A stretch of 64,000 nt of DNA from Paracoccus saliphilus (lineage in GTDB: Bacteria > Pseudomonadota > Alphaproteobacteria > Rhodobacterales > Rhodobacteraceae). The position numbers were made by a program, and so were the translations under genes. The notes below the pieces were generated by a model. That model was not told where the DNA came from, did not search any database, and saw only the letters and a list, made by a program, of their open reading frames with translations. Location of the stretch: the NCBI RefSeq assembly GCF_028553805.1, contig NZ_CP067140.1, forward strand, positions 2,170,001 through 2,234,000. The letters are read 5' to 3'. How positions within the stretch are numbered: position 1 is the first letter of the stretch; each line of letters opens with the position of its first letter. Below, one piece after another: positions 9,717-54,076 of this stretch.

Positions 9717-10448
9717 CTACGATTGTTGCGCCATCGCAATGACGTCGAAGTCAAAGTCATTGTCATAGCGCGCGTGCAAGAACTCCATGAACCGGGAGTG
9801 GAACTGCCGCGTGTGTTCGTGAGCGAGCTTGTCGGCCTCACCCGCATTCCGGGCGCGGATTGCCTCAATGATGTCGTAGTGATCAGAGGAGAGCAGTCGG
9901 TCCGAGGAAGACGAGTGGATATAGTCGAAATGCATATGCAGCATCCGTCGCCCTTCGTCGAGAAGCCGTTCGTAGGAGCGCGCGAGATATGGGTTCTTGC
10001 CCGCCGCGGCAACGCTCATGTGGAAGTCACGGTTCGTTGCTGACATCGCGAGATAGTCGTTCTCGCGGCACGCGGCGTCAAAAGCCTGTGCTTCGGCCTC
10101 CATGGCGGCGAGGTCGGCTTCGGTTCGGTTGCGTGCCGCGAGGCGCGTGTTGATCCGCTGCAAATAGTCGAGCGCCTCGACATACCGCGGGAAACCCACA
10201 AGGTCGATCGGAGCTACAAGTGTAGAGCGGTTCGATAGCATTTCCACAAGACCGTCGCCCGAGAGCCGGACAAGCGCCTCTCGGACCGGCGATCGCGACA
10301 TTGCGAATCTGTGCGAGATGGTTGTCTCGTCCAGTGGAGCGCCAGGTTCGAGCTCGAGCGTCAGAATCTCCCGCTTAAGTTCCTCGTAGATGTAGCGCGC
10401 GCCTTTTCCGCGCGCCTGTTTTTCTGCCGCCGAGTTCTTTTCGTTCAT
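9717..10448 (-). CDS. GntR-family (FCD) repressor of the hydroxyproline operon
   Basis: The protein has 243 residues. The ATG at 10448 (MNEKNSAAEK) was chosen because the longer frame would read into the operator region. The N-terminal winged helix (about 15-80) contains YIYEELKREILTLELEPGAP and the recognition segment SHRFAMSRSPVREALVRLSGDGLV. The C-terminal FCD all-helical ligand domain (about 95-225) has the metal-ligand pattern typical of the family: D and H in NRDFHMSV, and later His residues in SSDHYDIIEAIRARNAGEADKLAHEHTRQF. It is divergent from the ABC-transporter operon and probably represses it and itself through the TGTCGACA sites at 10508-10560. A matching block upstream of 20433 suggests a second target. 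Confidence 0.9.
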   Translation of the reverse strand: MNEKNSAAEKQARGKGARYIYEELKREILTLELEPGAPLDETTISHRFAMSRSPVREALVRLSGDGLVEMLSNRSTLVAPIDLVGFPRYVEALDYLQRINTRLAARNRTEADLAAMEAEAQAFDAACRENDYLAMSATNRDFHMSVAAAGKNPYLARSYERLLDEGRRMLHMHFDYIHSSSSDRLLSSDHYDIIEAIRARNAGEADKLAHEHTRQFHSRFMEFLHARYDNDFDFDVIAMAQQS

Positions 10449-10507: not shown

Positions 10508-10560
10508 TATTGACAAGACGACATGATGTCGACAAGCATTTGAATGCAGATTGTCGACAG
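10508..10560 (+). promoter_or_regulatory. Promoter and GntR operator of the hydroxyproline operon
   Basis: A consensus-like -35 box TTGACA (10510-10515) is followed by the palindrome CGACAT-G-ATGTCG (10519-10531), which overlaps TGTCGACAA. A second TTGTCGACA follows, with its GTCGAC core at 10553-10558, 25 bases after the first core at 10528-10533. TTGTCGACAA fits the TnGTnnnACnA-type half-site logic of FCD GntR regulators. The block sits between the divergent repressor and transporter genes and recurs at 20364. Confidence 0.65.
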
Positions 10561-10570
10561 GGAGACATCG

Positions 10571-11614
10571 ATGAAACTCGCAAAAAAATTCATGCTGGCA
10601 ACCACGGCTTTGGCGGGGCTCGCCTCCGCAGCCTCATCAGAGGTTGCCGATGACAGCCGCCTGAAGACGGTTCTCGACCGTGGATTACTCCAATGTTCCG
10701 GACATAACGGCTCGTTCTTAGGCTTCGCTGAGGTGAATGATGAGGGCAACTGGAAGGGTATCGATATTGATCTATGCCGCGCTCTGGCTGCGGGTCTTTT
10801 CGGCACCGCAAAGGACAACCTCGAGATTGTGCCGATCTCCTGGGCGCAACGGTGGCCCGCGCTTCAGTCCGGGGATATAGACGTGGTTATTAAAGCGTCT
10901 GGCTGGACGCAAAGCCGCGATACTGATTTGAACCTCGCGTTCAGCCGCCCATATTTCATCTCCACTTACCAAACGATGGCGCATGCCGAGCTCGGCGCGG
11001 AAACTTTGGCGGACCTTGGAGGCGGCACCCTTTGCGTTGGTGCCGGCACCTCGACGGAACGCGCCGCAGCAACGTATCTCGAGGCCAATAACATCGAAGC
11101 GGAATTATTGACTTTCGAGAACGGGGACGAACTCCGCAACTCCTATTACGAAGGCCGTTGCGACGGTCAGGTCGAGATTGCGCCAGGCCTAGCGGCTGGT
11201 CGCGTCGACGCTCCGAATGGAGCTGAGAACCATGTGATATTACCTGACGTTATCGCACTCGAAGCAGTTGGAATCGTAGTGCCAGAAGGAGATGATGACT
11301 GGCTGGACATTCAGAACTGGATGCTGTCGTCACTCTGGTTCGCCGAGGCGGAAGGCATCACGTCAGAGAACGTCGACGACATCCGCGCCAACCCACCCTC
11401 TGAGGTGGTGGCCAAGTTTCTCGGCGTAACGCCCGGCTACGGTGAGCGTCTCGGCCTCGACGACGACTGGGCCTACAATATGATCAAGGAAGTGGGCAGC
11501 TATTCCGAGATTTATGATCGCAATATCGGCTCAGGTTCACGCTACGGCCTCGAACGCGGGCTAAACGCGCTCTACAAGGATGGGGGCGTTTTCTATCCGA
11601 TGATCATCGACTGA
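10571..11614 (+). CDS. Amino-acid ABC transporter substrate-binding protein (AapJ-like)
   Basis: The protein has 347 residues with a Sec signal peptide (KKFMLATTALAGLASAASS). The start at 10571 has GGGAGA six bases upstream. The mature part is a family 3 polar-amino-acid binding protein: LKTVLDRGLLQCSGHNG, then GIDIDLCRALAAGLFG, DVVIKASGWTQSRDTDLNLAFSRPYF, and a C-terminal domain with NRYGLERGLN-like text (SRYGLERGLNALYKDGGVFYP). This matches the large ~340-residue AapJ/BztA subtype rather than the ~260-residue HisJ type. It captures the substrate in the periplasm for the AapQMP-like importer that follows, probably hydroxyproline or its betaine given the catabolic genes downstream (inference). 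Confidence 0.9.
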   Translation: MKLAKKFMLATTALAGLASAASSEVADDSRLKTVLDRGLLQCSGHNGSFLGFAEVNDEGNWKGIDIDLCRALAAGLFGTAKDNLEIVPISWAQRWPALQSGDIDVVIKASGWTQSRDTDLNLAFSRPYFISTYQTMAHAELGAETLADLGGGTLCVGAGTSTERAAATYLEANNIEAELLTFENGDELRNSYYEGRCDGQVEIAPGLAAGRVDAPNGAENHVILPDVIALEAVGIVVPEGDDDWLDIQNWMLSSLWFAEAEGITSENVDDIRANPPSEVVAKFLGVTPGYGERLGLDDDWAYNMIKEVGSYSEIYDRNIGSGSRYGLERGLNALYKDGGVFYPMIID

Positions 11615-11697
11615 TCCATCTTCGGTCGGAAAGGAGGCGATCTTTCCCGGCCAATCAGAAAAACCTATAACCTGCAAATGGTTGAGGAACGCCAATT

Positions 11698-12864
11698 ATG
11701 TCCGCGATACCGAAGAACAAATATATCCGCGACACTGGACTGCAGATTGTTTTCGTTGGGGGCCTGATCCTGCTGATCCTGATGATGGTGCTCACCGCCC
11801 GAACGAACCTCGCCGCGCAGGGGTTGACCTCGGGGTTCGGCTTTCTCGAGCGCACCACCGGGTGGCGGATCAGTTTCTCGCTGATCGAGTATTCAACCTC
11901 GTCCACCTATGCGCGTGCCATCCTTGTCGGCCTACTGAATTCGCTCTTTTTGGGGGTCCTGTCGCTGCCATTGGCAACTCTGATCGGTATCAGCATCGGC
12001 GTTATGCGCACGTCGGGCAACGGCATGGCCGAACTTCTCGGTACGATCTATGTCGAGATCTTCCGGAACGTGCCGATCATCCTTCAGCTCTTCTTCTGGT
12101 ACGCGCTCCTCTTGGCGCTTCCCTCGCCCCGCAACGCTGATCCGATCCTGGGATCGATTGCTCTGACTGGGCGCGGCATCTACATCCCTGGCCTTAACGT
12201 GTCGGGGGCGTCGGTTCTTGTCGCCGTGCTGATCCTGCTTGCGGGTGCAGCCCTGCATCTCCGGGGCCGGAAAACCCGATGGGCCCGGGCCGACCGCGGT
12301 CAGATTCGGCGCGAGCAACGTTTCCTGTGGGCTGTGGCCAGCCTTTTCACCGTAATGTGCTTCTGGCTGGGCCGCCTCCCCGGGACCCCGCTACTCTCGC
12401 TACCCGAGGCACGCGGCCTCAATTTCGACGGCGGCATCAGCATCTCGCCCGAACTCATGGCCTGCGTGATCGCGATCTCAGTTTATGGCGGGGCCTACAT
12501 TGCCGAAATCATCCGCTCCGGTTTCAATGCCGTACCGAAGGGCATGAGCGAAGCCGGCCGCGCGCTCGGGCTTTCGGGCTTCCAGGTCTTTGCACGCATT
12601 CGTCTGCCATTGGCCATCCGGATCGTCATGCCCACAATGATCAACCAGTTCGTCTGGCTGTTCAAGGCGACGACTATCGGCATCGCCATCAGCTTCACCG
12701 ATTTTTTCATGGTTATCTCTACCTCGATCAATCAGTCGGGTCAGACCCTGGAACTGATCGGAATTCTCATGGCCGGCTTCCTCGCCATTAACTACTCGCT
12801 CGCCTGGGTGTTGAACCGTGTCAACGACGCGATCGCGCTCCGCGGCACACAGCTGAGGATGTGA
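11698..12864 (+). CDS. Amino-acid ABC transporter permease (AapQ-like)
   Basis: The 388-residue inner-membrane permease of the His/Glu/Gln/Arg family has the long insert between helices typical of AapQ/BztB. The N-terminal membrane helix (about 15-38) is followed by LVGLLNSLFLGVLSLPLATLIG and VEIFRNVPIILQLFFWYALL. The EAA loop that docks the ATPase is EIIRSGFNAVPKGMSEAGRALGLSGFQVFARIRLPLAIRI near residues 270-305. It lies 83 bases after the binding protein and is followed four bases later by its partner permease. With that partner it forms the heterodimeric channel. Confidence 0.9.
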   Translation: MSAIPKNKYIRDTGLQIVFVGGLILLILMMVLTARTNLAAQGLTSGFGFLERTTGWRISFSLIEYSTSSTYARAILVGLLNSLFLGVLSLPLATLIGISIGVMRTSGNGMAELLGTIYVEIFRNVPIILQLFFWYALLLALPSPRNADPILGSIALTGRGIYIPGLNVSGASVLVAVLILLAGAALHLRGRKTRWARADRGQIRREQRFLWAVASLFTVMCFWLGRLPGTPLLSLPEARGLNFDGGISISPELMACVIAISVYGGAYIAEIIRSGFNAVPKGMSEAGRALGLSGFQVFARIRLPLAIRIVMPTMINQFVWLFKATTIGIAISFTDFFMVISTSINQSGQTLELIGILMAGFLAINYSLAWVLNRVNDAIALRGTQLRM

Positions 12865-12868
12865 TCCA

Positions 12869-13951
12869 ATGACTGTCGGTTTCTCCGCCCACCAGATCCC
12901 CCGCCAGCCGTTGCCGCAGATCCTGAAGGATCACTATTTCGCGACGAAGGTCGACACCGTGGTCACAGTCAGCTTCGGCCTTCTTACGCTCTGGTTCCTC
13001 TGGTCCATCCTCGAATGGGCAGTACTGCATGCCTATTTCGACCCCGCGAACCGCGATGCCTGTGTACAGTCCAAAGGTGCCTGCTGGGCCGTGGTCTCGG
13101 CCCGCTGGCGGATCGTCCTTTTCGGGCTCTATCCCTTCGAGGAGCAGTGGCGCTCGGGGCTTGCCTGCCTTGCCATCATCCTGACCGTCGGGCTAAGCTG
13201 CCTGCCGTGGTTCTGGAACGCCAAGCGCCTTCCAATGCTCTGGATCGCTGGTTTCGCCGCTTTCTATATCCTGATGCGCGGGGGTGTCTTCGGGTTGACC
13301 CCAGTTAACGAACGCGACTGGGGCGGGCTGGCGCTGACCCTCTTCATCTTCGCAGCGGTCGTGCTGATCGGAATGCCGCTGGCCATTGTCTTTGCGCTAC
13401 TACGCCGATCAGAGCTGCCGTGGATTTCCCGGACAATGGCGCTTGTCATCGACACCATCCGGTCTCTGCCGCTTCTGACGATCATGTTCGCCTTCGCGAT
13501 CGTGCTGCCCTTCGCTACGCCGCACTGGATGAGCGGCCAGCAGCTCTATCGCGTAATCGTAGGCTACGCGATCTTCTTCGCCTGTTACCAAGCCGAAATC
13601 ATCCGGGGCGGGATGCAATCTCTGCCGGCCGGGCAGGAGGAAGCGGCCAAGGCGCTCGGCCTTGGATACTGGCAGCGTATCAGCCATATCGTCCTACCGC
13701 AGGCCTTCCGCAACGCCCTGCCGCCCACAATCAACCAGGTCGTCATCACCTTCAAGGAAACCTCGCTCGTGACGATCATCGGGTTCTTCGACATCCTGGC
13801 CTCGGGGCGGGCGGCGTCCGGTACCAGCGAGTGGTCCTTCGCGACGGTCGAGGTCTACGTCTTTGTCGCCTTTATCTTCTTCGTCTTCGTCTTCTCGCTC
13901 TCCCGCTATGGCGCGTATCTCGAACGCCGCCTTGGCGTGGGCGTCCGATAA
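12869..13951 (+). CDS. Amino-acid ABC transporter permease (AapM-like)
   Basis: The second permease subunit has 360 residues. It shows several membrane helices, two cysteine-containing periplasmic segments ([13 protein letters not shown]), and the EAA motif [40 protein letters not shown] near residues 245-285. Family members pair with AapQ-type permeases. The stop TAA overlaps the first possible ATG of the ATPase gene, giving tight coupling. It acts in the inner membrane as half of the channel for the substrate delivered by the protein encoded at 10571. Confidence 0.9.
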
Positions 13952-13962
13952 TGGAGGCTACC

Positions 13963-14703
13963 ATGTCAGCCCCCGCCATCCGCATCTCCGGCATGAACAA
14001 GCTCTACGGCCAGTTCCATGCGCTCCATGACATCGACCTGACCGTTGAGCGCGGCGAGAAGGTCGTCATCTGTGGCCCCTCCGGGTCGGGCAAGTCGACC
14101 CTCATCCGCTGCATCAATAGGCTGGAGGAACACCAGTCCGGCACTATTGAGGTCATGGGCACCTGCCTCGACGACAACGTCGACCATATCGACGAAATCC
14201 GGCGCGAGGCGGGCATGGTCTTTCAGAACTTCAACCTGTTCCCGCACATGAGCGTGCTGGATAATTGCACGCTCGCTCCGGTGCTCGCCCGGAAGACACC
14301 GCGGGCCGATGCCGAAGCGACGGCGCTGCGCTACCTCGCGCGAGTCAAGATCCCCGAGCAGGCACACAAATTCCCCGGCGAGCTGTCCGGTGGACAGCAG
14401 CAGCGTGTCGCGATCGCGCGGGCGCTGTGCATGAACCCCAAAATTATGCTCTTCGACGAGCCAACCTCGGCCCTCGACCCCGAGATGATCTCAGAAGTTC
14501 TGGACGTCATGGTGGGCCTCGCGAGGGAAGGAATGACCATGGTCTGCGTGACCCACGAGATGGGCTTTGCGCGGCAGATAGCGGACCGGGTTATATTCAT
14601 GGCCGACGGCCGAATCGTCGAACAGGCTCCGCCTGAGGACTTCTTCAACAACCCGCAAAACGACCGCACGAGAGCCTTCATCGGCCAAGTGATGGGGCAC
14701 TGA
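13963..14703 (+). CDS. Amino-acid ABC transporter ATP-binding protein (AapP-like)
   Basis: The 246-residue ABC ATPase has Walker [10 protein letters not shown], the Q loop [10 protein letters not shown], signature LSGGQQQR, Walker B IMLFDEP, the D loop SALDPE and the switch His in CVTHEM. The start at 13963 is preferred over the ATG at 13951 because GGAGG lies five bases before it. The earlier ATG overlaps the upstream stop and remains possible. It energises import through the AapQM-like permeases. A 58-base gap separates it from the first catabolic gene, which has its own AGGA site. Confidence 0.93.
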
Positions 14704-14761: not shown

Positions 14762-15640
14762 ATGAAACTTCAAGGTGTCATGCCTGCCCTCGTCACGCCC
14801 TTCGGCGAGGACAACAAGATCGACTTCAAGGCCTTTGAAACTCACCTGACGAACCTGCGTGCTGCAGGCGTCTCGGGCTGGGTGCCCTGCGGGTCGTCTG
14901 GCGAATACAACCTGATGAGCGATGCTGAGCGCGACGAGGTACTGAAGTTCGTCAAGGACTTCTCCAGCGAGGACGAGATCTTGATCGCTGGCACCAACGC
15001 GCCGCATACGGCGGGCGTGATCGAAAATACGCGCCGCGCCAAGGAGATCGGCTTTGACACGGTGCTTCTAGCGCCCCCTTTCTACACCAAGCCCACCGAC
15101 GCGGAGCTTGTGAGCCACTTCAAGGCGGTGCTTGAGGCGGTGGATGTTAATATCGTGCTCTATTCCTACCCAGACAAGGACGGGATCGAGATCAGCTATG
15201 ACTTATTGGATGCACTAGCCGACCACCCTCGCGTTATCGGGATCAAGGAAAGCTCAGGCTCACTGCAGCGCGCCATTGGTATCGCAACCCGCTACAAGAA
15301 TCGCATCCAGCTTGTCTCCGGCTCGGACGACATTGCGCTCGACTTCATGTTCTGGGGCGCGGATTCGTGGATCTGCGGACCGGCCAACTGCATGGGCAAG
15401 GCGGTCTGCGATCTCGACCGGACCTACCGGGCCGGCGACCTCGGCAGGGCGAAAGAGCAGATGGCGACACTCTACAACGCAATGAACATTCTCGAATCCG
15501 GAAAATTCGTTCAGAAGCTGAAATACGGCTGCGAGCTTCAGGGCACATCAGTCGGCGAATGCCGTCTGCCGCTTGGGCCGTTGAGCGACGAGGAAAAGGT
15601 GGCGTTCCGCACGGCGATGGAACCCATCCTGAACTGGTAG
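14762..15640 (+). CDS. 1-pyrroline-4-hydroxy-2-carboxylate deaminase (DHDPS family)
   Basis: A 292-residue member of the dihydrodipicolinate synthase / N-acetylneuraminate lyase family. The TIM barrel carries the Schiff-base lysine K162 in VIGIKESSG and the partner tyrosine Y134 in IVLYSYP. The substrate-carboxylate loop reads CGSSGEYNLMS, where DHDPS proper usually has GTTGE. In the company of an epimerase, a D-amino-acid oxidase and a semialdehyde dehydrogenase, the natural role is deamination and ring opening of 1-pyrroline-4-hydroxy-2-carboxylate to 2-oxoglutarate semialdehyde. Assignment is from family plus neighbourhood; sequence alone would also allow other aldolase or lyase activities. 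Confidence 0.82.
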   Translation: MKLQGVMPALVTPFGEDNKIDFKAFETHLTNLRAAGVSGWVPCGSSGEYNLMSDAERDEVLKFVKDFSSEDEILIAGTNAPHTAGVIENTRRAKEIGFDTVLLAPPFYTKPTDAELVSHFKAVLEAVDVNIVLYSYPDKDGIEISYDLLDALADHPRVIGIKESSGSLQRAIGIATRYKNRIQLVSGSDDIALDFMFWGADSWICGPANCMGKAVCDLDRTYRAGDLGRAKEQMATLYNAMNILESGKFVQKLKYGCELQGTSVGECRLPLGPLSDEEKVAFRTAMEPILNW

Positions 15641-15702
15641 CCTCCTCAACTGGGGCGGCCCCGACCGTCCCGATCTTTTACCCTGATAAGGTGGAAGGCA
15701 TC

Positions 15703-16950
15703 GTGACTGACACTGGCTGGACAACACTTGTCATCGGCGCTGGCGTGATCGGGGCGGCAATTGCGCATGAACTGAAAAAGCGTGGTCGACGGGTGATCCT
15801 CGTCGACCGGGATGCGCCGGGCCGGGGTGCCTCCTATGGCAACATGGCCTCTATCGCCGTGACCGAGTTCATGCCATCCTCACGCCCGTCCGTGTGGCGC
15901 CAGATCCCTGGCTGGCTCATGGACCCGGAAGGTGCGGTCTGCGTGCGCCCCGCCTACATGCCGAGGCTGACGCCGTGGTTCCTACGGTTTCTCGCGGCAA
16001 GCCGACCGCGCAAACTGCGCGACCTTGAGGCGCAAGGGGCGGCGCTCTGCAAGCGCGCCCTGCCCGACACGCAGGCTCTCCTGCTGGAGATCGGCGCAGC
16101 GGACGACCTGTCGCAGGAAGGCTGCCTCTCGCTCTATACCGGTAAGGCCGAGTTCGCGGCGGACCGCGACCATATAGAGATCCTCGAACGCTTCGGTTTC
16201 CGGCACGAAATCCTTGGTCACAACGCCATTCGCGACCTCGAACCCGAGATCACCGCGAAGATCGACAGGGCCGTACTGTTCCCCGACAACCGCTCACTGA
16301 AGGATCCGTATCGTTATGTCACCCGGCTGGTGGAACGGTTCGAAGGGCTCGGCGGCACCGTTCTGCGCGGGACCGTGGCTGATTTCGAAAGGGGCGCACG
16401 TATCGAGGCGGTGCGGCTGGTCGATGGCACGCGCCTCGCGGCAGACGAGGTTGTGCTCTGCGCCGGCGCCTTCACCGCGCGGCTGTCAAAAAAGCTCGGC
16501 GAACCGATCCCGCTCGAGACGGAGCGCGGGTATCACACGCAGATCGCCAAGCCAGGTATCTCGATACGCCATTCGATCATCTGGCCGGCACGCGCCTTCA
16601 TGGTGACGCCGACGGCCGGTGGCATCCGCGTGGGAGGCACTGTCGAAATGGCGGGCCTCGAGGCACCCCCGGACTATCGTCGGGCGAAGATCACCGTGAA
16701 GCGCGCCTGCGAGGCTCTGCCGAACCTTACCGTTGAGGACACAACCGAATGGATGGGCCACCGCCCCGCGCTGCCTGACACAGTTCCGGTGATGTCCGCC
16801 TCCGCGAAGATTCCGGGCGTTTACTACGCGACGGGCCACGGTCACCTCGGACTGACCTATGCCGCCACCTGCGGGCGGTTGATGGGCCAGCTGATTACCG
16901 GGGAAAGGCCCGAGATCGACCTTCATCCCTATCGTATCAACCGTTTCTGA
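15703..16950 (+). CDS. FAD-dependent D-amino-acid (cis-4-hydroxy-D-proline) oxidase/dehydrogenase
   Basis: A 415-residue DAO-family flavoprotein. The dinucleotide fold is at the N-terminus: TLVIGAGVIGAAIAHELKKRGRRVILVDRD, then GRGASYGNMA. The C-terminal FAD-binding end GVYYATGHGHLGLTYAATCGRLMGQLI is also present. A GTG start is used, with GGAAGG a few bases upstream; an earlier in-frame GTG at 15691 is possible. Family members oxidise D-proline or D-hydroxyproline to the cyclic imine. Here it would produce 1-pyrroline-4-hydroxy-2-carboxylate, the substrate of the gene before it. It probably passes electrons to the membrane or oxygen. Confidence 0.85.
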   Translation: MTDTGWTTLVIGAGVIGAAIAHELKKRGRRVILVDRDAPGRGASYGNMASIAVTEFMPSSRPSVWRQIPGWLMDPEGAVCVRPAYMPRLTPWFLRFLAASRPRKLRDLEAQGAALCKRALPDTQALLLEIGAADDLSQEGCLSLYTGKAEFAADRDHIEILERFGFRHEILGHNAIRDLEPEITAKIDRAVLFPDNRSLKDPYRYVTRLVERFEGLGGTVLRGTVADFERGARIEAVRLVDGTRLAADEVVLCAGAFTARLSKKLGEPIPLETERGYHTQIAKPGISIRHSIIWPARAFMVTPTAGGIRVGGTVEMAGLEAPPDYRRAKITVKRACEALPNLTVEDTTEWMGHRPALPDTVPVMSASAKIPGVYYATGHGHLGLTYAATCGRLMGQLITGERPEIDLHPYRINRF

Positions 16951-16963
16951 AAGGAGCCGAGAC

Positions 16964-17665
16964 ATGACCGACAAGGTATGCCTCATCGTCGGTGGGGGGC
17001 GCGGCATGGGTGCCGCGACCGCCCGAGAAATGTATGGACGTGGCTACAAGCTGGCCTTGATGTCCCCGTCGACAAGTTGCGAAGAACTGGCCGCCGAACT
17101 CGGCGGCGTCGCGCGTCGCGGCAAAGCCGAGAATGCCGAGGACATACAAGGCATCTTCGATCTAGCCATGGGCGCATGGAGCCGCGTCGACGCGGTGCTG
17201 ATCCATGTCGGCGGACCGCCCAAGGGGGACCTTCTGGAGATTTCCGAACAGGATTGGGATAAGGCGAACGCGATGGTCATCAAGCCGGTGATCCGCATGG
17301 CTAAACTGGTCACGCCAGTGATGGAGAAACAGGGCGGCGGCTCGATCGTGAACATCACAACATTCTCAGCCTTCGAGCCCTCGCTGATCTTCCCGACGTC
17401 CAGCGTCTACCGCGCCGGGGTCTCCTCCTTCACAAAGCTCTACTCTGATCGCTATGGCCCCTCAAACATCCGCATGAACTGCATCCTGCCGGGCTTCACT
17501 GACAGCCTCGATCTTCCGCAGAAATACGCGGACATGTCCGCCTTGGGACGCCTTGGCCACGCTAAGGAGCAGGGCAAGGCTGCAGCCTTCCTGCTATCGG
17601 AGGACTCGAGCTACATCACCGGCCAGAGCCTCCGGGTCGACGGCGGCGTGACGCGGGCGATGTGA
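16964..17665 (+). CDS. Short-chain dehydrogenase/reductase with an altered active site
   Basis: The protein has 233 residues with a Rossmann fold: CLIVGGGRGMGAATAREM at the nucleotide site and the C-terminal SSYITGQSLRVDGGVTRAM typical of classical SDRs. The catalytic Ser is present (S135 in NITTFSAF) and so is the Tyr (Y149). The lysine of the YxxxK motif is replaced by Val (YRAGV, V153). It is embedded in the hydroxyproline operon, 13 bases after the oxidase and 7 bases before the aldehyde dehydrogenase, but no standard step of the pathway needs an SDR. Its role is unknown; it may act on a side product or have lost reductase activity. Confidence 0.8.
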   Translation: MTDKVCLIVGGGRGMGAATAREMYGRGYKLALMSPSTSCEELAAELGGVARRGKAENAEDIQGIFDLAMGAWSRVDAVLIHVGGPPKGDLLEISEQDWDKANAMVIKPVIRMAKLVTPVMEKQGGGSIVNITTFSAFEPSLIFPTSSVYRAGVSSFTKLYSDRYGPSNIRMNCILPGFTDSLDLPQKYADMSALGRLGHAKEQGKAAAFLLSEDSSYITGQSLRVDGGVTRAM

Positions 17666-17672
17666 GGCCAGC

Positions 17673-19148
17673 ATGAGGGATCAAATATACATCGACGGCA
17701 GGTATGTCGCATCAGCCTCGGGCGAGATGTTCGACGTCATCGACCCTTCGAACCGTGAGGTGTTCCACCGGGTGCCGGCCGGCAACGCCGAAGATATTGA
17801 CCGCGCCGTGAGGGCCGCGCGCCGTGCCTTCGACGCGGGCCCCTGGCCACGCATGTCGGGCGTCGAGCGCGCCGCAGTACTGCGCAAGATGGGCGACGAG
17901 ATCGCCGCGCGCATCAGCGAGATCGCGCGCATCGAGGTACAGGACAACGGCAAGCCGCTGCCCGAGGCCGTCTGGGACATCGAGGACACGGCGGGCGTCT
18001 TCCACTACTACGCCGACCTCGCTGAGCGCTTCGACCAAGAGGCGGAGCAGAAAGTCGAACTGGGCATGGAGGGCTTCAGTTCGAAGGCCGTGAAAGAACC
18101 CGTTGGCGTCGCGGGTGCAATCATCCCATGGAATTTCCCTCTACTGATGGCCGCGTGGAAGGTCGCCCCGGCCCTCGCTGCGGGATGCACGGTGGTGCTC
18201 AAACCCTCGGAACTGACTCCGGTCAGTGCGTTGGAACTCGGCGGGATCGCTGAGCGTGCCGGCCTGCCTGCCGGATGCCTGAACATCATCACGGGCTTTG
18301 GCTCCGACGCTGGTGCACCCCTGACCGAGCATCCGTTGGTCGACAAGCTCGCCTTCACCGGCTCGGTGCCGACGGGATCGCGGATCATGGCGATGGCGGC
18401 GAAGGATATCAAGACTCTGAGCCTCGAACTTGGCGGCAAATCCCCGCTAGTGATCTTCGCCGATACGCCCATTGAGGACGCCGTAGAATGGATCCTCTTC
18501 GGCATCTTCTGGAACCAAGGCGAGGTCTGCTCCGCCACTTCCCGCGTGCTGATCGAGGAGCGCGCGTTTGAAGCGCTGATGGAGCGCCTTGTCGCGGAGG
18601 CGCAGAAGATCAGGATCGGCCACGGGCTGGAGGACGGGGTCCTACTCGGCCCGCTCGTCAGCCCTGTGCAGCACGAGAAGGTGCTTAACTGGATCGAGAC
18701 GGGAAAGAAAGAAGCCAGACTCGTCACTGGTGGTGGTGTGCCCCCGGGCCTCGAAGGCGGCTGCTATGTGGAGCCGACGATCTTCGCCGACGTGCCCGAG
18801 GAAGCGACGATCTGGACCGAAGAAATCTTCGGGCCCGTCGTTTGCGTGAAGACCTTCCGGACCGAGGAGGAGGCCATCCGCCTTGCAAACAACACACGCT
18901 TCGGCTTGGCTGCGGCGGTCATGTCGGACGACCTCGATCGCGCAAACCGCGTGGCAAGGGCATTCCGTGCAGGGATCGTCTGGATTAACTGTTCGCAGCC
19001 CACATTCACCGAAGCGCCTTGGGGTGGCTACAAGCAATCCGGCCTCGGCCGTGAGCTCGGCGAATGGGGCTTAAACAACTATCTTGAAGTCAAGCAGGTC
19101 ACGACTTGGGACCGTCACAGGCCCTGGGGTTGGTATCTGAAGGAGTAA
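17673..19148 (+). CDS. 2-oxoglutarate semialdehyde-type aldehyde dehydrogenase
   Basis: The 491-residue NAD(P)-dependent aldehyde dehydrogenase has the nucleotide-binding IIPWNFPLLMAAWK, the general base E252 in LELGGKSP, and the nucleophile C286 in NQGEVCSATSR. The C-terminal oligomerisation end is PWGGYKQSGLGRELG. By sequence it resembles betaine-aldehyde-type enzymes; by position it most likely oxidises 2-oxoglutarate semialdehyde to 2-oxoglutarate, the last hydroxyproline step, feeding the TCA cycle. Another aldehyde such as a betaine aldehyde cannot be excluded. It starts 7 bases after the SDR and stops 3 bases before the epimerase, so it lies inside the same transcript. Confidence 0.85.
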   Translation: MRDQIYIDGRYVASASGEMFDVIDPSNREVFHRVPAGNAEDIDRAVRAARRAFDAGPWPRMSGVERAAVLRKMGDEIAARISEIARIEVQDNGKPLPEAVWDIEDTAGVFHYYADLAERFDQEAEQKVELGMEGFSSKAVKEPVGVAGAIIPWNFPLLMAAWKVAPALAAGCTVVLKPSELTPVSALELGGIAERAGLPAGCLNIITGFGSDAGAPLTEHPLVDKLAFTGSVPTGSRIMAMAAKDIKTLSLELGGKSPLVIFADTPIEDAVEWILFGIFWNQGEVCSATSRVLIEERAFEALMERLVAEAQKIRIGHGLEDGVLLGPLVSPVQHEKVLNWIETGKKEARLVTGGGVPPGLEGGCYVEPTIFADVPEEATIWTEEIFGPVVCVKTFRTEEEAIRLANNTRFGLAAAVMSDDLDRANRVARAFRAGIVWINCSQPTFTEAPWGGYKQSGLGRELGEWGLNNYLEVKQVTTWDRHRPWGWYLKE

Positions 19149-19151
19149 GCC

Positions 19152-20168
19152 ATGCGCTGGTCAAGAATGCTTCAGACGGTGGACGTGCATTGCGCGGGCG
19201 AGATCGGTCGCGTGATCACCGGGGGAGTCCTGAACGTCCCCGGCGTCACCATGACCGCGAAACTACATCACCTGAACCACGTGGACGATAGCCTGCGCCG
19301 GTTCCTGTGTTCCGAACCCCGTGCCGCGCCGGCGGGGTCGTTCTGCCTTCTGGTGCCGGCGACGGTGCCGGAGGCCGACATGGGTCTTATCATCCTGCAA
19401 CCAGATCAGGCGCATGCCATGTCTGGTTCGAACGCTATGTGTGCCGCCACGGCAGTGCTCGAGACCGGCATGGTGCCTATGATTGAGCCGGAAACCGTGA
19501 TCACCTTCGATACTGCCGCCGGGTTGGTAAGCGCCACCTGCGCCTGCGTAGGCGGCAAGGTAACGAGCGTCGCAATCGGCATGCCGCCCGCCTTCGTCGC
19601 GGTACGCGGGGCGACGATCGAGACCAGGGCTTGGGGTGCCGTCACTTATGATCTCTGTTTCGGTGGTGTCTTCTACGCGCTGGTCGACGCCACGGAACTG
19701 GACCTGACGCTGACACCCGAGAACGCGCGGGAGATTGCGACCAAGGGCGTCGCGCTGCGCAACCTCATCGCGCCGGCCTGCGCGGCCAAGCATCCGACCG
19801 TGCCGGAGCTTGATGGCCTTGCCTACGTGATGTTCCGCGCAAACGACCCTGACGGGGCGATCCGGACCTGCACAACCCTGCGCCCAGGGCGGGCCGACCG
19901 GTCGCCCTGCGGCACTGGGTCGAACGCGAACATGGCGGTGCGGCATGCCGCTGGCATAGCGCGGCCGGGTGACCGGATTGTGTCACGCTCGATCATCGGC
20001 GGAGAGTTCGTGACCGAGTTCATCGAGGAAACGACCGTCGGAGATGTACCCGCCGCGCTTAGCCGGATCTCGGGCCAGTGCTGGATCTATGCGATAACGC
20101 AGATCGGCCTCGACCCGACTGACCCTTTCCCGGAGGGGTTCACCCTCTCCGACACCTGGGGCGGCTGA
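19152..20168 (+). CDS. 4-hydroxyproline 2-epimerase (proline racemase family, Ser/Cys type)
   Basis: A 338-residue proline racemase superfamily protein. The first catalytic position is Ser (S91 in AMSGSNAMC) where proline racemase has Cys; the second is Cys (C253 in DRSPCGTGSN). Ser/Cys members are reported in the literature as hydroxyproline epimerases, some with 3-hydroxyproline activity. Neighbouring oxidase, deaminase and semialdehyde dehydrogenase point to conversion of trans-4-hydroxy-L-proline to cis-4-hydroxy-D-proline, the entry step. It is the last substantial gene of the operon, three bases after the dehydrogenase. Confidence 0.88.
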   Translation: MRWSRMLQTVDVHCAGEIGRVITGGVLNVPGVTMTAKLHHLNHVDDSLRRFLCSEPRAAPAGSFCLLVPATVPEADMGLIILQPDQAHAMSGSNAMCAATAVLETGMVPMIEPETVITFDTAAGLVSATCACVGGKVTSVAIGMPPAFVAVRGATIETRAWGAVTYDLCFGGVFYALVDATELDLTLTPENAREIATKGVALRNLIAPACAAKHPTVPELDGLAYVMFRANDPDGAIRTCTTLRPGRADRSPCGTGSNANMAVRHAAGIARPGDRIVSRSIIGGEFVTEFIEETTVGDVPAALSRISGQCWIYAITQIGLDPTDPFPEGFTLSDTWGG

Positions 20169-20363: not shown

Positions 20364-20418
20364 ATTGACAAGACGACATTGTGTCGACAACAATGTAACT
20401 GAAGGCATAGTGTCGACA
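20364..20418 (+). promoter_or_regulatory. Second copy of the hydroxyproline promoter/operator
   Basis: The stretch starting ATTGACAAGACGACAT matches the block at 10509 in 25 of 27 positions, including the TTGACA box (20365-20370) and TGTCGACAA (GTCGAC core 20383-20388). A second core GTGTCGACAT lies 29 bases on (20412-20417). It ends 15 bases before the start codon of the cobalamin-dependent protein. The same GntR repressor most likely binds both promoters. Confidence 0.65.
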
Positions 20419-20432
20419 TTGCGAGGATAAAA

Positions 20433-22172
20433 ATGCATGAGCTGTCACGCCTATCAGAACTTGTTCCGTCCCGCATGCGACCCGGCGAGGAGCTGTTGGC
20501 TGAGGGTAGAGAGATGGCCAAAGATTGGCCCCTCGGACGTTCGGCTTTCATGGAAGCCACAGGCTTTGCCTCAGAAGTTGAGTACAAAACCTCCGTTACA
20601 TCTCGTGTCATGCAGCACGCTGTCATAGGCTTTCGAAGCGTTGACCGCACGCTAGAAGCATTAAAGCAGGTACACGGCACCTGTGAAGAACAAGGCGTGA
20701 CAGTGGATCGGTTTGGAATCATCCTCGATTGGTCGATGGGGTATCCGCAGGCATTGCGCGAAAAGGCCACCCGGGGCACGGGGATCGTCCTGTCTGGCCC
20801 TGACGATTTTGCACGCTTCACGGGTGCTGCCCATGCCTCGATGCACTTTGGCGATTTCATGTTGGGCCTACCAGGCGCGCTCGACAATACGAAGGCCGCG
20901 ATTGCTGCTGGAGCAACCGCCCTCGGCAACTTAGGACAGTATTTCACTTTTCGCCTTCCTGGCTGGGACGATGATGTAGCTACGACGGAGGCGACCGTAA
21001 CCGCACTTGGCCTTATCGCGGCCCAAAATGGTGCAGTATTGGTCCACTCCAACATTGATGACGGATTTGCCGGCCTATTTCAGGATATGTGCTGTAGCTT
21101 CGGAATGGTTTTGGTAGAGAAACACCTTATTGAAGGTCTAATCGGTGCACCGCTGGGACATTGTTACGGCCACCATTTCTCTGACCCATTATCGCGTATG
21201 GCCTTCCAGGCGGCATTGGCGTCTGTCAGCACCACACCTGGCACCATGATCTACGGCAACACCGTGGGTTATCAGTCCACCGAGGCCGGGAACTACGCTA
21301 GTCTTTCCAGCTACCTTCTACCGGACATTATGGCCTTGGGTCGATGGCCCACAGGACACGCTGTCAACCCGGTTCCAGTGACCGAAAACCAGCGCATCCC
21401 TGATGTGAGTGAGATCATCGACGCACAAATTTTCGCTCACCGGCTCAATCAACATGCACCGAAGCACGCGGCTTTGGTGAACTGGACGGTCGTTGAGGAT
21501 TTGGCTGAACGGATGGTTTCTGGTGGCCGTCGCTTTGCAAGCAATCTGCTGTCGGGTCTTGAAGCGTTAGGCATCGATATGGACGATCCCGCCCAAATCT
21601 TTATTGCTATTCGCCGTCTTGGCCCGCGAGCGCTAGAAGCCAACTTCGGCCCCGGCCTGCTCACCGACTCATTTCGAACTCCCGAAATTCGTGCGGAATG
21701 GGCTTACGAGCTGGACGAGATGGCCGAGGACTGGCTCGCCACTCGGGGCGAAGTTGGTTTGCTCAAAGGAGCTGCTCTGAAGGTATGTGTCGGCACCTCC
21801 GACGTTCACGAGCACGGCAAGTATCTGGTCGAACGCGCCCTCACTGGCCTTGGTGTCGAGGCATGCGACGGCGGCGTTTCCGTTGATGCGGAAGTTCTTG
21901 TGGAGCGCGCACTGTCGTTCAGGGCCGACGCAATCGCCATATCCACCTACAATGGTGTTGCTCGTAGATATGTTGCTGATGTTCGAAATGCTCTTGCCGA
22001 AAAAGGGAGCGAACTGCCCGTCTTGGTTGGCGGTATGCTCAACGAAGTCCCACTAGACTCGAACTCGGACTTACCCATCGATGTCTCAACTGACATCGCA
22101 GCGTTGGGCGCGATTCCGTGCGCTGACTTGGATGACATGCTGACAACACTGAATGAAATGGTAAGGAGATAA
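20433..22172 (+). CDS. Cobalamin-dependent mutase-like protein, uncharacterised
   Basis: A 579-residue single chain with two parts. The C-terminal ~130 residues form a B12-binding Rossmann domain of base-off/His-on type: DVHEHG (457-462, cobalt ligand H459), STYNG (about 504-508) and LVGGML near 531-536. Residues 1-440 look like a TIM-barrel catalytic domain related to glutamate-mutase-type large subunits, with conserved-looking runs FTFRLPGWDDD, IYGNTVGYQSTEAGNY and ALGRWPTGHAVNPVPVTENQRIPD. AGGAT precedes the ATG. Known carbon-skeleton or aminomutases carry these parts either on two chains or fused; this fusion does not match MCM, glutamate mutase E, or ornithine aminomutase closely by eye. 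Its promoter carries the hydroxyproline operator. The reaction is unknown. Confidence 0.72.
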   Translation: MHELSRLSELVPSRMRPGEELLAEGREMAKDWPLGRSAFMEATGFASEVEYKTSVTSRVMQHAVIGFRSVDRTLEALKQVHGTCEEQGVTVDRFGIILDWSMGYPQALREKATRGTGIVLSGPDDFARFTGAAHASMHFGDFMLGLPGALDNTKAAIAAGATALGNLGQYFTFRLPGWDDDVATTEATVTALGLIAAQNGAVLVHSNIDDGFAGLFQDMCCSFGMVLVEKHLIEGLIGAPLGHCYGHHFSDPLSRMAFQAALASVSTTPGTMIYGNTVGYQSTEAGNYASLSSYLLPDIMALGRWPTGHAVNPVPVTENQRIPDVSEIIDAQIFAHRLNQHAPKHAALVNWTVVEDLAERMVSGGRRFASNLLSGLEALGIDMDDPAQIFIAIRRLGPRALEANFGPGLLTDSFRTPEIRAEWAYELDEMAEDWLATRGEVGLLKGAALKVCVGTSDVHEHGKYLVERALTGLGVEACDGGVSVDAEVLVERALSFRADAIAISTYNGVARRYVADVRNALAEKGSELPVLVGGMLNEVPLDSNSDLPIDVSTDIAALGAIPCADLDDMLTTLNEMVRR

Positions 22173-22473
22173 GCTTATAAATCCCAGATATTCGCACAAG
22201 GACAATATATCTGCAGGCGAGGATATAGATGGCATTCTCTATAGTTGCAGATCACATTTTGCCAACGCAAGGCGTAGTCAGATCTTATTCTTGTATGAAT
22301 TGACCTCACCAAACCACATCACAGGAAGCCACGATAAAATTAAAATAAAGGCCACCTTTCTTGATTACCTTCTCCGTCGAGAGAGGTAAACTCCACTTCT
22401 CGGCGGCTGTTTTCAGTTCATTCTTCTTGTGTGTCGCCATGTCAAACAAATCGATCAAGCGAGAGGATTCACC
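22173..22473. other. AT-richer spacer before the ProC-like gene
   Basis: Three hundred bases, lower in GC than the surroundings, between the cobalamin protein and the ProC-like gene. A minus-strand 44-codon frame starting at 22440 (MATHKKNELKTAAEKW) has no clear ribosome site and no known match. No terminator hairpin was found, so read-through into the ProC-like gene is possible. Confidence 0.45.
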
Positions 22474-23259
22474 ATGAGTTCACCCTCCTGTATTGGCTTC
22501 ATCGGGACTGGTACGATAACCGCACACATAGTTCGAGGATTAAAAAATTCGAACTTGAGAGACCGGCCAATTACCTTGTCACCAAGGAGTAAAAAAATTG
22601 CACAAGAATTGGCTCGGGACTTTAAAAGGGTTGAAGTCGCAAAGACTAATCAGGCGGTGATAGACCGTGCAGATATTATCATTCTTGCCGTCCGTCCCCA
22701 GATAGCGAAAGATGTCCTGCGACCGATATCCTTTTCCCGTGAAATTCCAATAATAAGCCTCATGGCCACGTTACCGATAGAGACACTACGTGGCTGGACT
22801 AGCGCGTCCCGTATTTGCCGTGCGATCCCTTTGCCCTTCGTTGAGCGTCGCTGCGATGTTATCCCTGTATTTCCACCTCTTCCCGAAGCTATAGAAATCT
22901 TCAACGCCCTTGGGCAAGCCTTACCGGTTACTGATCTTACGTCTTTTGACGCATACGCCTCCGGTAGCGCGTTGATGGCCACATATTTTGGAATGATTGA
23001 AAGCACAGTTGCGTGGATGGAGGCGCAAGGGATTCCTGAAATGAACGCTGCGACCTACATTGGAGCTCTTTTCTCCAATCTCTCAGCGACACTAGCTGAA
23101 AACCCTACTTCTGTCTCAACACTTCGCGATGCCCATGCCACTCAAGGTGGGCTGAACGAACAGTTGCATCAAGAATTCAAGGCTTACGGCGGTGAAGATG
23201 CAATTAAAGCTGGTCTAGAGGCGATATTAAAGCGAATCAAAGCCGCTTCACCAACATAA
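22474..23259 (+). CDS. Pyrroline-5-carboxylate reductase-like protein (ProC family)
   Basis: The protein has 261 residues; GAGAGGA lies seven bases before the chosen ATG. The N-terminal Rossmann domain reads IGFIGTGTITAHIVRGLK, with DIIILAVRPQIAKDVL following, as in ProC. The C-terminal helical dimerisation domain includes FDAYASGSALMATYF and the family pattern LRDAHATQGGLNEQ where ProC has a V-T-SPGGTT-like segment. The usual RVMPNTP motif is replaced by CRAIPLPFVE. It therefore belongs to the family but may not be the biosynthetic proC; it may reduce another cyclic imine. It follows the cobalamin protein on the same strand. Confidence 0.8.
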   Translation: MSSPSCIGFIGTGTITAHIVRGLKNSNLRDRPITLSPRSKKIAQELARDFKRVEVAKTNQAVIDRADIIILAVRPQIAKDVLRPISFSREIPIISLMATLPIETLRGWTSASRICRAIPLPFVERRCDVIPVFPPLPEAIEIFNALGQALPVTDLTSFDAYASGSALMATYFGMIESTVAWMEAQGIPEMNAATYIGALFSNLSATLAENPTSVSTLRDAHATQGGLNEQLHQEFKAYGGEDAIKAGLEAILKRIKAASPT

Positions 23260-26393: not shown

Positions 26394-26449
26394 CAGTGGC
26401 TTCCCAATTTTTCAACTGTCTGATTCAAGATCGAAAACAGGAGGCGATC

Positions 26450-27207
26450 TTGAGCAGACGAACTTTGAGTGACGCACAATGGGCGATCATTGAGCCATTG
26501 GTTCCCGGCAAGAAGGGTGATCGTGGCCGCACGGGTGCCGACAACCGGCTTTTCGTCGACGCCATCCTCTGGCTGGCACGGGGAGCCACGCCCTGGCGCG
26601 ATCTGCCGCCCGAACTCGGTAACTGGCGCACGGTGCATTCGCGTTTCCGCCGCTGGACCCTGGCGGGTGTGTGGGAGAATCTTTTCAAAGCCTTACGCAA
26701 AGACCCGGATTTCGAGTATGTGCTGGTGGATGCGACGATCTGTAAAGCGCATGCCGATGCGACTTCTCAAAAAGGGGGCTTGAAGCTGCCGGTATTGGCC
26801 GCTCCAGAGGCGGCCTGACCACAAAGGTCCATGCGGCCGTGGATGCCTTGGGCCTGCCGGTCCGGTTCACCATTACGCCCGGACAATGGGGCGATTGCCC
26901 GCAGGCGCAAGGCTTGATCGACGGGCTGTCTGACGTGGGCCATGTCATCATGGATGCCGCTTATGATGCCGATTATCTTCGCGATTTCATTGCAAATGAC
27001 CTCGGTGCGGTGGCGCATATCAAGCGCAATCCAACCCGGCGTGAAGATCGCCCGATTGACTGGGTGCTGTATAAGGAGCGCCATTTGGTTGAATGTTTCT
27101 TCAATCGGATCAAACGGTTCCGGAGGATCGCCCTGCGCTGCGAAAAGACCATCTCCTCATTCAAGGCTTTCGTCGATCTCGCCTGCGCTATGGCATGGCT
27201 CGCTTAA
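26450..27207 (+). CDS. IS427-group transposase made by -1 frameshifting
   Basis: The first frame starts at a TTG preceded by AGGAGG at five bases and runs to 26818. It contains LSDAQWAIIEPLVPG, the RTGADNRLFVDAILWLARGA region and the first catalytic Asp in YVLVDATICKAHADA. The second frame, entered by slipping back one base at CAAAAAGGGGGC (around 26768-26779), reads LEAAGIGRSRGGLTTKVHAA. It then gives the second Asp in VIMDAAYDADY and the catalytic Glu in HLVECFFNRIKRFR. The fused product is about 250 residues. This A-run/G-run slippage design is known for IS427 elements. Confidence 0.85.
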
Positions 27208-52774: not shown

Positions 52775-54076
52775 TCAATCTCGGTCTCGTCTCGCGAAGC
52801 CATCGTCCTCGATGGATTGGCCGGATGATGGACTGTGCTCCTTTTGGGTGATCAGCCGTGCGGAATTTTGTCCCGACAGGAAACTCCAGAGCCAATTCAG
52901 GGACACGAACAAACGCGACCGCGCTCCGATCAGAAAATAGATATGAGCAATTCCCCAAACCCACCACGCAAGCCACCCTTTCATCTGAAAGCGGCCGTAT
53001 TCGATCACTGCTGCATTCCGTCCGACGGTGGCAAGATTTCCCATGTTGCGATATCGAAAACGACCAGGTGGCTCCGCGCCTGTCAGCCGCGCACGGATTG
53101 TACGGGCGGTATGGCTGCCTTGTTGCTTGGCTGCGGGAGCGACGCCGGGAACCTGCTGACCGTCGCTTTCGACATGCGCAGTATCACCCAGCACGAAAAT
53201 CGAGGGATCACCAGGCAGTGTCAGGTCGTCATTCACGATCACACGGCCAGCATGATCTGCCTTCGCATGCAACCAGTCCTTGGCCTGTGACGCCTGGACA
53301 CCAGCTGCCCAGATCACCGTATGCGTTGGTATGAATTCCTCTCCGAGTACGATTCCATCGCTTGTGCATTCAGTCACCGGCGTGCCCGTCCTGACCTCAA
53401 CGCCCCTCCGCGAGAGCGCATGCTTCGCGTAGGCCGACAACTTGTCGCCGAAGGCCGGGAGAATGCGTGCCCCCGCTTCAATCAACATCACCTTTGCACG
53501 ACGCGTGTCGCTGCGGCGGAATTCACCGGGAAGGATGCGATGGGCCAATTCGGCGATTATCCCGACCAGTTCGACGCCCGTCGGCCCCGCTCCGATAACC
53601 GCAAAGGTCAACTGTGCGTCGCGTTCCGCTTCATTCTCGCTCATTTCCGCGCGCTCGAACGCCAGAAGAAGCCTGCGCCGGATGGTTGTCGCGTCCTCAA
53701 GTGTCTTCAGCCCTGGTGCATACTCTTCCCAGTGATCCTTGCCGAAATATGCGTGGCGCACACCAGTTGCGATGACCAAGCTGTCATAGGGAACCCGGGT
53801 ACCGTGACGCAGAATTACTTCGCGGGCATCACGGTCAACACCATCCACCTTGCCCAGCAAGGTCGTCACATCCTTTCGATCCCGTAGCAGCGACCGGATC
53901 GGCCAGGCGATGTCGGAGGTGGCGAGCATGCTTGTCGCAACCTGGTAAAGCAGCGGTTGAAACAGATGATGATTGCGCTGGTCGATCACGGTAATGTCGC
54001 AATCAACACCCTTCAGGCCCTGCACAACCGTCAAGCCGGCGAATCCCGCTCCGACAATGACGATGCGATGTTTCAT
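52775..54076 (-). CDS. Type II NADH dehydrogenase (Ndh-like)
   Basis: A 433-residue flavoprotein with two nucleotide folds: HRIVIVGAGFAGLTVVQGLKG for FAD and TFAVIGAGPTGVELVGIIAELA for NADH. The typical marks HHLFQPLLYQVATSMLATSDIAWPIRSLLR, VIWAAGVQAS, FVLGDTAHVE and VAPAAKQQGSHTARTI are present. The C-terminal amphipathic region (WLAWWVWGIAHIYFLIGARSRLFVSLNWLWSFL) anchors it to the membrane face. It oxidises NADH and reduces quinone without pumping protons. It stands alone; GGGGAT lies seven bases before the ATG. Confidence 0.9.
   Translation of the reverse strand: MKHRIVIVGAGFAGLTVVQGLKGVDCDITVIDQRNHHLFQPLLYQVATSMLATSDIAWPIRSLLRDRKDVTTLLGKVDGVDRDAREVILRHGTRVPYDSLVIATGVRHAYFGKDHWEEYAPGLKTLEDATTIRRRLLLAFERAEMSENEAERDAQLTFAVIGAGPTGVELVGIIAELAHRILPGEFRRSDTRRAKVMLIEAGARILPAFGDKLSAYAKHALSRRGVEVRTGTPVTECTSDGIVLGEEFIPTHTVIWAAGVQASQAKDWLHAKADHAGRVIVNDDLTLPGDPSIFVLGDTAHVESDGQQVPGVAPAAKQQGSHTARTIRARLTGAEPPGRFRYRNMGNLATVGRNAAVIEYGRFQMKGWLAWWVWGIAHIYFLIGARSRLFVSLNWLWSFLSGQNSARLITQKEHSPSSGQSIEDDGFARRDRD

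Follow-up and report, generated by a model that had tools for sequence, protein, structure and literature searches.

The classical 4-hydroxyproline operon encodes an epimerase, a DAAO, a DHDPS-type deaminase and an ALDH, and the pathway as laid out in the main text of eLife.03275 has no B12 step, the words B12, cobalamin and mutase being absent from that text. In cluster 9 as described there, the assayed Ser-Cys members are 4-hydroxyproline epimerases. A reaction of anaerobes is described in the sections of eLife.51420 that treat it, in which HypD (trans-4-hydroxy-L-proline dehydratase, a glycyl-radical enzyme) turns hydroxyproline into pyrroline-5-carboxylate (P5C) and is encoded near a P5C reductase; the same sections state that several glycyl-radical eliminases have B12 counterparts. 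Hydroxyproline genes of Streptomyces are under GntR control, with a motif that, in the part of PMC6608401 concerned, differs from the one described below.

The window analysed here, 64,000 nucleotides of Paracoccus saliphilus (contig NZ_CP067140.1, positions 2,170,001 to 2,234,000), contains what looks, from its gene content, like an ordinary 4-hydroxyproline pathway, with genes at 14762-20168 that correspond to those of the classical operon. It is compared below with homologous operons on the Phyllobacterium zundukense plasmid NZ_CP017943 and at a locus of our genome collection, L020. A GntR/FCD-type regulator is encoded on the minus strand at 9717-10448 (54% over 219 residues to the P. zundukense GntR), in a frame that is open to 10583 and whose start is uncertain. 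The plus strand carries the open reading frames of an amino-acid ABC transporter (binding protein, two permeases and ATPase, 10571-14703), the ATPase matching its equivalent in L020 at 68% and that in P. zundukense, annotated as an amino acid ABC transporter, at 48%. There follow on the same strand a DHDPS-family protein (DapA, 14762-15640; 73% to P. zundukense and 75% to L020), likely the pyrroline-4-hydroxy-2-carboxylate deaminase of the pathway as given in eLife.03275, an FAD (DAO-family) oxidoreductase that is likely a cis-4-hydroxy-D-proline dehydrogenase (15706-16950; 68-69% to the two equivalents, 68% in P. zundukense), an SDR oxidoreductase (16964-17665; about 27% to the SDRs of related loci) and an aldehyde dehydrogenase, likely acting on 2-oxoglutarate semialdehyde (17673-19148; 62-64%, with 62% in P. 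zundukense). The last gene, at 19152-20168, encodes a protein that fits the proline racemase family (PF05544, E 8.1e-100, 334.5 bits; 52% to P. zundukense) with a Ser/Cys dyad as in cluster 9 (motifs MSGSN and DRSPCGTG), and is likely the 4-hydroxyproline epimerase. It scores below the cut-offs of all NCBIfam epimerase models (NF010578, 181.9 against 376; NF052296, 115.7 against 450) and below that of its best NCBIfam model, the trans-3-hydroxyproline dehydratase NF047722 (300.6 against 550).

Beyond this operon, on the plus strand, lies a gene for a B12 radical-enzyme-like protein (20433-22172). The sequence-only reading had claimed a mutase-like B12 enzyme of 579 residues, with a C-terminal B12-binding domain fused to a barrel-like N-terminus, and the open reading frame, Pfam, structure prediction and structural alignment bear this out, the last two as far as a predicted structure can. 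B12-binding PF02310 is the sole Pfam match at E up to 1 (residues 456-536, E 1.7e-9, 37.9 bits against a cut-off of 32.1), and the named motifs are all present, DVHEHG at 457-462, STYNG at 504-508 and GG at 533-534. Their spacing, DxHxxG-41-SxY-26-GG (residues 457-462, 504-506 and 533-534), fits what we take to be the base-off rule, DxHxxG-(41)-SxL-(26-28)-GG, with Tyr in place of the usual Leu. In the predicted structure a barrel with helices occupies residues ~14-440 and the B12-binding domain residues ~446-579; the barrel would share the fold of GlmE, and mutases are the nearest folds by structural alignment. DVHEHGK is invariant in the family. No Rfam family was found in the window at gathering threshold, hence no cobalamin riboswitch was seen. 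The protein is placed in a family of single-chain, base-off B12 enzymes that is apparently undescribed, and no description of this family or of its pairing with ProC was found in the open-licence literature among the matches listed.

The B12 gene is followed, after a gap of 301 bp, by a plus-strand gene for a ProC-like (pyrroline-5-carboxylate reductase-like) imine reductase of 261 residues (22474-23259, ATG start, with an upstream GTG at 22429 possible). Like the PRK06476/NF005063 P5C-reductase subfamily it stands above the cut-off of NF005063 (265.6 bits against 254), and PF03807 and PF14748 are also above theirs, while it falls far under the TIGR00112 proC cut-off (76.8 against 196.75). The scan listed no plus-strand terminator-like site in the gap and the two genes may be co-expressed; the GC content of the ProC gene is 48.3% against 61.5% for the hydroxyproline operon. 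Another ProC-like stretch lies in the same genome at C1:589470. A ProC-like gene with the motif PLPFVE does follow the B12 gene, as had been claimed, but PLPFVE is not singular, being a variant of R-A-I/V-P-L/M-P, which occurs in at least 8 of 22 other loci of the window ProC clade (at most three matches were shown per locus, and some may be missed). That clade, in a quick tree, joins the window ProC to the P. zundukense ProC (43% identical) and rhizobial genes, and its identity to the remaining B12-linked ProCs compared is 23-32%. In an alignment judged by eye, both ProC groups depart in the substrate-side domain from what we take to be the usual P5C-reductase motifs.

The link between the B12 gene and hydroxyproline is carried by its promoter. 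As the earlier reading had it, the operator/promoter block of the hydroxyproline operon (plus strand, 10509-10549), which is flanked by the GntR gene and the operon's first gene, is copied before the B12 gene (plus strand, 20364-20418), with 33 of 41 nucleotides of 10509-10549 identical to 20364-20404 and a local alignment score of 29, where 500 dinucleotide-preserving shuffles gave no more than 15. Both blocks open with TTGACA (at 20365 in the copy), next to which the palindromic core CGACA-N3-TGTCG (CGACATGATGTCG in the hydroxyproline block, 20374-20386 in the copy) lies within the spacer of a promoter-like site. CGACANNNTGTCG occurs three times in the window against 0.11 expected, the third time at 53435, away from both promoters, and ACGACANNNTGTCGACA, the core with its flanks, is found with zero mismatches at the two promoter sites only in the whole 4.62 Mb genome. 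At up to two mismatches ACGACANNNTGTCGACA has 29 sites genome-wide against 21 for the reversed control, which is background level. The duplication of the operator is observed; the GntR regulator would bind at both sites, and from this arrangement the B12 gene looks like its second target.

A comparable arrangement is present in P. zundukense, where the homologous operon is followed by the GntR gene, a P5C-reductase gene and a B12 gene (49% to the window). There the ProC-B12 pair is preceded by a second copy of the promoter of the transporter/hydroxyproline side, with 60 of 69 nucleotides identical and a score of 51, and none of 500 shuffles scored above 14. Between the two species the letters of the operators differ and the operators are not clearly alike, 8 of 500 shuffles being as good for the hydroxyproline promoters and 320 of 500 for the B12 promoters. 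The B12 proteins fall in separate clades of a quick family tree; our trees have long branches and are relied on only for this separateness. We read these loci, on sequence grounds, as two separate recruitments of B12 genes into one kind of candidate regulon. In L020 a window-like operon accompanies a B12 gene with a different GntR (26% to the window's), and no copy of the operator core was found in the locus. The same 21.7 kb holds the B12 gene, the hydroxyproline-type operon and a glutamate mutase set, the E subunit named through an identical protein and the S and L subunits by eye.

The B12 family comprises 1212 homologues at E <= 0.001 among 8000 candidates scored, and 202 stretches were confirmed in the genome collection, of which the best 80 form the neighbourhood set. 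Neighbour genes were called with a codon-scored home-made gene finder trained on the B12 genes themselves, which missed some genes (the DapA gene in the window and the B12 gene itself in L203, for example), and neighbour families are similarity clusters, mostly named by eye, with Pfam/NCBIfam run on one member of some. The claimed pairing with ProC recurs: a ProC-like gene is present in 49 of the 80 loci, within 1.5 kb in 22 and within 300 bp in 18, the last being divergent upstream in 14 and downstream on the same strand in 4. An aspartate-dehydrogenase-like gene is found in 45 of 80; among the 31 loci that lack a ProC-like gene, 19 have it and 12 have neither. In an even class-wide sample of 387 genomes the B12 gene is present in 15 (20 hits), and of the 19 hits in genomes other than the window's, 8 have ProC in the 1.5 kb flanks, always in the order B12 to ProC on one strand and with B12 proteins 43-49% identical to the window's. 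NF005063 at E <= 1e-40 matches 22 of these 387 genomes, which include 8 of the 15 carriers of the B12 gene, and in 4 of those 8 the match is on a different contig from the B12 gene. Order-wide, 8 of 390 genomes carry the B12 gene, with ProC in the flanks of 1 of 7 non-own hits, and in the window's genus its distribution is patchy, with a full-length gene in 2 of 37 genomes. In one other family, of which 374 genomes were sampled, the B12 gene was present in 15, and ProC in 13 of 15 fetched regions, many of them on the same contigs as in the set of 202. ProC-like imine reductases are the most frequent recognised partners of the B12 family. ProC and B12 genes are neighbours in several clades of its tree, and the pairing probably arose more than once.

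The copied hydroxyproline operator is seen in two genomes, but most members are not beside a window-like operon, which in the locus layouts was found in 1 of 80 loci (L020). Because of this, and of the single ProC neighbour among the seven order-wide hits, the label hydroxyproline-linked or ProC-linked cannot be given to the whole family. A rhizobial layout, for which annotated examples exist, combines the B12 gene with cupin, aspartate-dehydrogenase-like, alpha/beta hydrolase, E1/E2 (2-oxo-acid or acetoin dehydrogenase type), NIPSNAP, carnitine-dehydrogenase-like, ProC and GntR genes and a branched-chain amino-acid transporter. In a second layout (Ancylobacter, Ochrobactrum, Bosea sp. 117 and others) it stands with DAO, DapA and either one racemase-family gene or two; in two loci whose sequences were inspected, the two were a Cys/Cys and a Ser/Cys protein. 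Loci of type B (DAO, DapA and one or two racemase-family genes) have the look of hydroxyproline clusters but are not counted here as the same pathway, their DapA being only 23-25% identical to the window's in the three compared. A third layout consists of ProC-B12 pairs alone or with a PhyH-type oxygenase (PhyH in 4 of 80 loci), and in a further set genes for a sulfatase, an enzyme of sulfatase-modifying type and a class IV aminotransferase lie near the B12 gene (Pfam, one example each). DAO-family genes occur in 17 of 80 other loci, and racemase-family genes likewise in 17. Hydroxylated amino compounds may be a recurring theme of these neighbourhoods. Eight plasmid records carry the B12 gene, of which three were opened. 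The window's ProC subfamily matches 224 plasmid records, and in five that were opened besides P. zundukense no B12 gene was found within 8 kb; in Shinella WSD5-1 the ProC gene lies in a hydroxyproline cluster with GntR, with the B12 gene absent within 8 kb.

We tentatively propose a model in which the B12 enzyme and ProC together provide an oxygen-tolerant radical route from hydroxyproline, or a close isomer, to proline via P5C. Adenosylcobalamin bound base-off would yield the 5'-deoxyadenosyl radical, which would abstract a hydrogen from C5, beside the ring nitrogen, in trans-4-hydroxy-L-proline or a near isomer; loss of the neighbouring hydroxyl would then give P5C, which the ProC-like enzyme would reduce to proline. 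Such a route would parallel that of anaerobic HypD and P5C reductase in oxygen-tolerant form, and the amino acid would be saved rather than burnt to 2-oxoglutarate. The stronger form of this proposal, a B12-dependent hydroxyproline dehydratase that is the first of its kind, base-off and of mutase fold, by whose product and partner aerobes reverse prolyl hydroxylation, we regard as doubtful; it would also be, to our knowledge, the first eliminase on a base-off mutase architecture. Dehydration explains the hydroxyproline control and the pair's standing alone. The sequence-only reading had invoked a radical rearrangement and an imine reduction of some compound other than hydroxyproline; the mutase-like predicted fold and the recurrent ProC-like reductase agree with its outline, but a rearrangement as such gains no support, since a 1,2-elimination is no worse a fit to ProC and the hydroxyproline control, and a substrate other than hydroxyproline finds no support either. 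Several observations count against dehydration. The base-off (DxHxxG) B12 radical enzymes that we know of are mutases and the B12 eliminases that we know of are base-on. The window already holds the full epimerase route, the window-like operon accompanies the B12 gene in just L020 of the 80 loci, ProC is lacking from 31 of 80 and flanks one order-wide hit in seven, and the gene is patchy. The window ProC, with its low identity to other B12-linked ProCs (only 23-32%), lower GC, distance of 301 bp and non-standard substrate-side motifs, counts on the same side, as do the five plasmids that carry its subfamily with no B12 gene within 8 kb and the operators of the window and P. zundukense that are not clearly alike. 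In the account given in eLife.51420, hydroxyproline dehydration is without precedent in B12 enzymology.

The predicted fold is fitted by a glutamate-mutase-like shift, and it is almost as probable as the dehydration that the enzyme is a carbon-skeleton (or amino) mutase moving a fragment within a small amino acid related to hydroxyproline or glutamate, to give an amino aldehyde or oxo acid closing to a pyrroline (or an aspartate-like amino acid) that ProC-like or aspartate-dehydrogenase-like partners would reduce or oxidise. The nearest folds of the predicted structure are those of mutases, the aspartate-dehydrogenase-like gene occurs in 45 of the 80 loci (the one member tested is above the cut-off of an NCBIfam aspartate dehydrogenase subfamily), and L020 keeps a glutamate mutase set beside the B12 gene and hydroxyproline-type operon; yet a linear or branched precursor is not evident in the window, and hhalign of the family against 14 GlmE rows gave a probability of 0.4%, without profile-level relation to glutamate mutase E, so active-site residues are not transferable from GlmE. 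A lysine and a glutamate contact the cofactor of glutamate mutase, and no obvious counterpart of these was seen by eye.

Less probable, and on balance unlikely, is that the substrate of the pair has nothing to do with hydroxyproline, and that its place under the hydroxyproline operator in two genomes reflects the co-supply of compounds from, for example, plant cell wall or collagen. The many loci in other company, with branched-chain amino-acid transporter, aspartate-dehydrogenase-like, alpha/beta hydrolase, cupin and E1/E2 genes or sulfatase clusters, speak for this, but the hydroxyproline operator has been duplicated twice, in differing arrangements, and the DAO-family and racemase-family genes of other loci point the same way. 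That methionine synthase is the best-scoring solved chain for the B12 domain, and that the invariant DVHEHGK resembles its DVHDIGK, would suit a corrinoid methyltransferase demethylating N-methylated (hydroxy)proline, which we consider very improbable. We give hardly any credence to ProC alone serving hydroxyproline use, for example by reducing a pyrroline intermediate, next to an independent B12 gene: the Shinella cluster and the differing composition of the window ProC would allow it, but the operator copy in the window precedes the B12 gene and not ProC, and the ProC-B12 neighbourhood returns across the family tree.

Radical B12 enzymes are few, and here a whole family appears without an assigned substrate, for which the ProC pairing and the copied hydroxyproline operator in two genomes allow a testable proposal. 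If the dehydratase reading is true, aerobic alphaproteobacteria, rhizobia included, would have a means of turning an abundant modified amino acid back into proline. It would also fill a gap stated openly in the text of eLife.51420 on these enzymes.

When set against known B12 enzymes, the window protein differs from the methylmalonyl-CoA mutase family in length (579 against about 700 residues) and has no methylmalonyl-CoA mutase Pfam match at E up to 1. It differs from the D-lysine 5,6- and D-ornithine 4,5-aminomutases, whose PLP lysine we take to lie 11 residues after the cobalt-binding His, in having Leu470 and no lysine at H459 + 11, and no second subunit was seen. From glutamate mutase (GlmE and GlmS) it differs in being one chain, with a B12 domain bearing DVHEHGK and S-T-Y, and PF06368 (glutamate mutase E) has no match at E up to 1 in the protein and none in its whole genome. 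Glycyl-radical/PFL-type domains likewise gave no Pfam match in the protein at E up to 1. The locus differs from HypD and its P5C reductase in having a B12 barrel protein, in being alphaproteobacterial and in that its reaction is a proposal only, and resembles them in pairing a radical-enzyme gene with one for a P5C-reductase-like protein in a setting of hydroxyproline genes.

Several loci carry further genes beside homologues of the B12 gene, which encodes a B12 radical-enzyme-like protein. In L072, L037, L212, L220 and L224 the B12 gene and ProC, encoding a pyrroline-5-carboxylate reductase-like imine reductase, are adjoined by a PhyH-type 2-oxoglutarate oxygenase, which in the last three of these loci shows 74-81% identity to its best named match. 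At L122, L124, L203 and L119 the B12 gene is clustered with genes for a sulfatase, a class IV aminotransferase, a GntR protein and an amino-acid transporter, with a sulfatase-modifying-type enzyme additionally present in L122, L124 and L203; the substrate of these four clusters is perhaps a sulfated hydroxy amino acid.

In L215, L216 and L217 a ProC-like gene, together with two ABC-transporter ATPase genes, again adjoins distant B12 relatives, which are 37% identical to the Phyllobacterium zundukense protein. At G693:C20:4099-11242 (L145, L152 and L156) the B12 gene is present as a tandem triplicate, one copy of which contains an internal stop, and the same contig bears a ProC-like gene.

Within the window, a third CGACA-N3-TGTCG palindrome lies at 53435-53447, distant from the hydroxyproline genes, and ORFs at 26396-27207 resemble, as judged by eye, a broken IS5-type transposase.

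Finally, in a Mesorhizobium MAG the B12 gene and a hydroxyproline-type operon are followed, 6 kb further on, by a glutamate mutase set (L020:17843-21159), whose S-like and MutL-like subunits were called by eye and E from the name of an identical protein.
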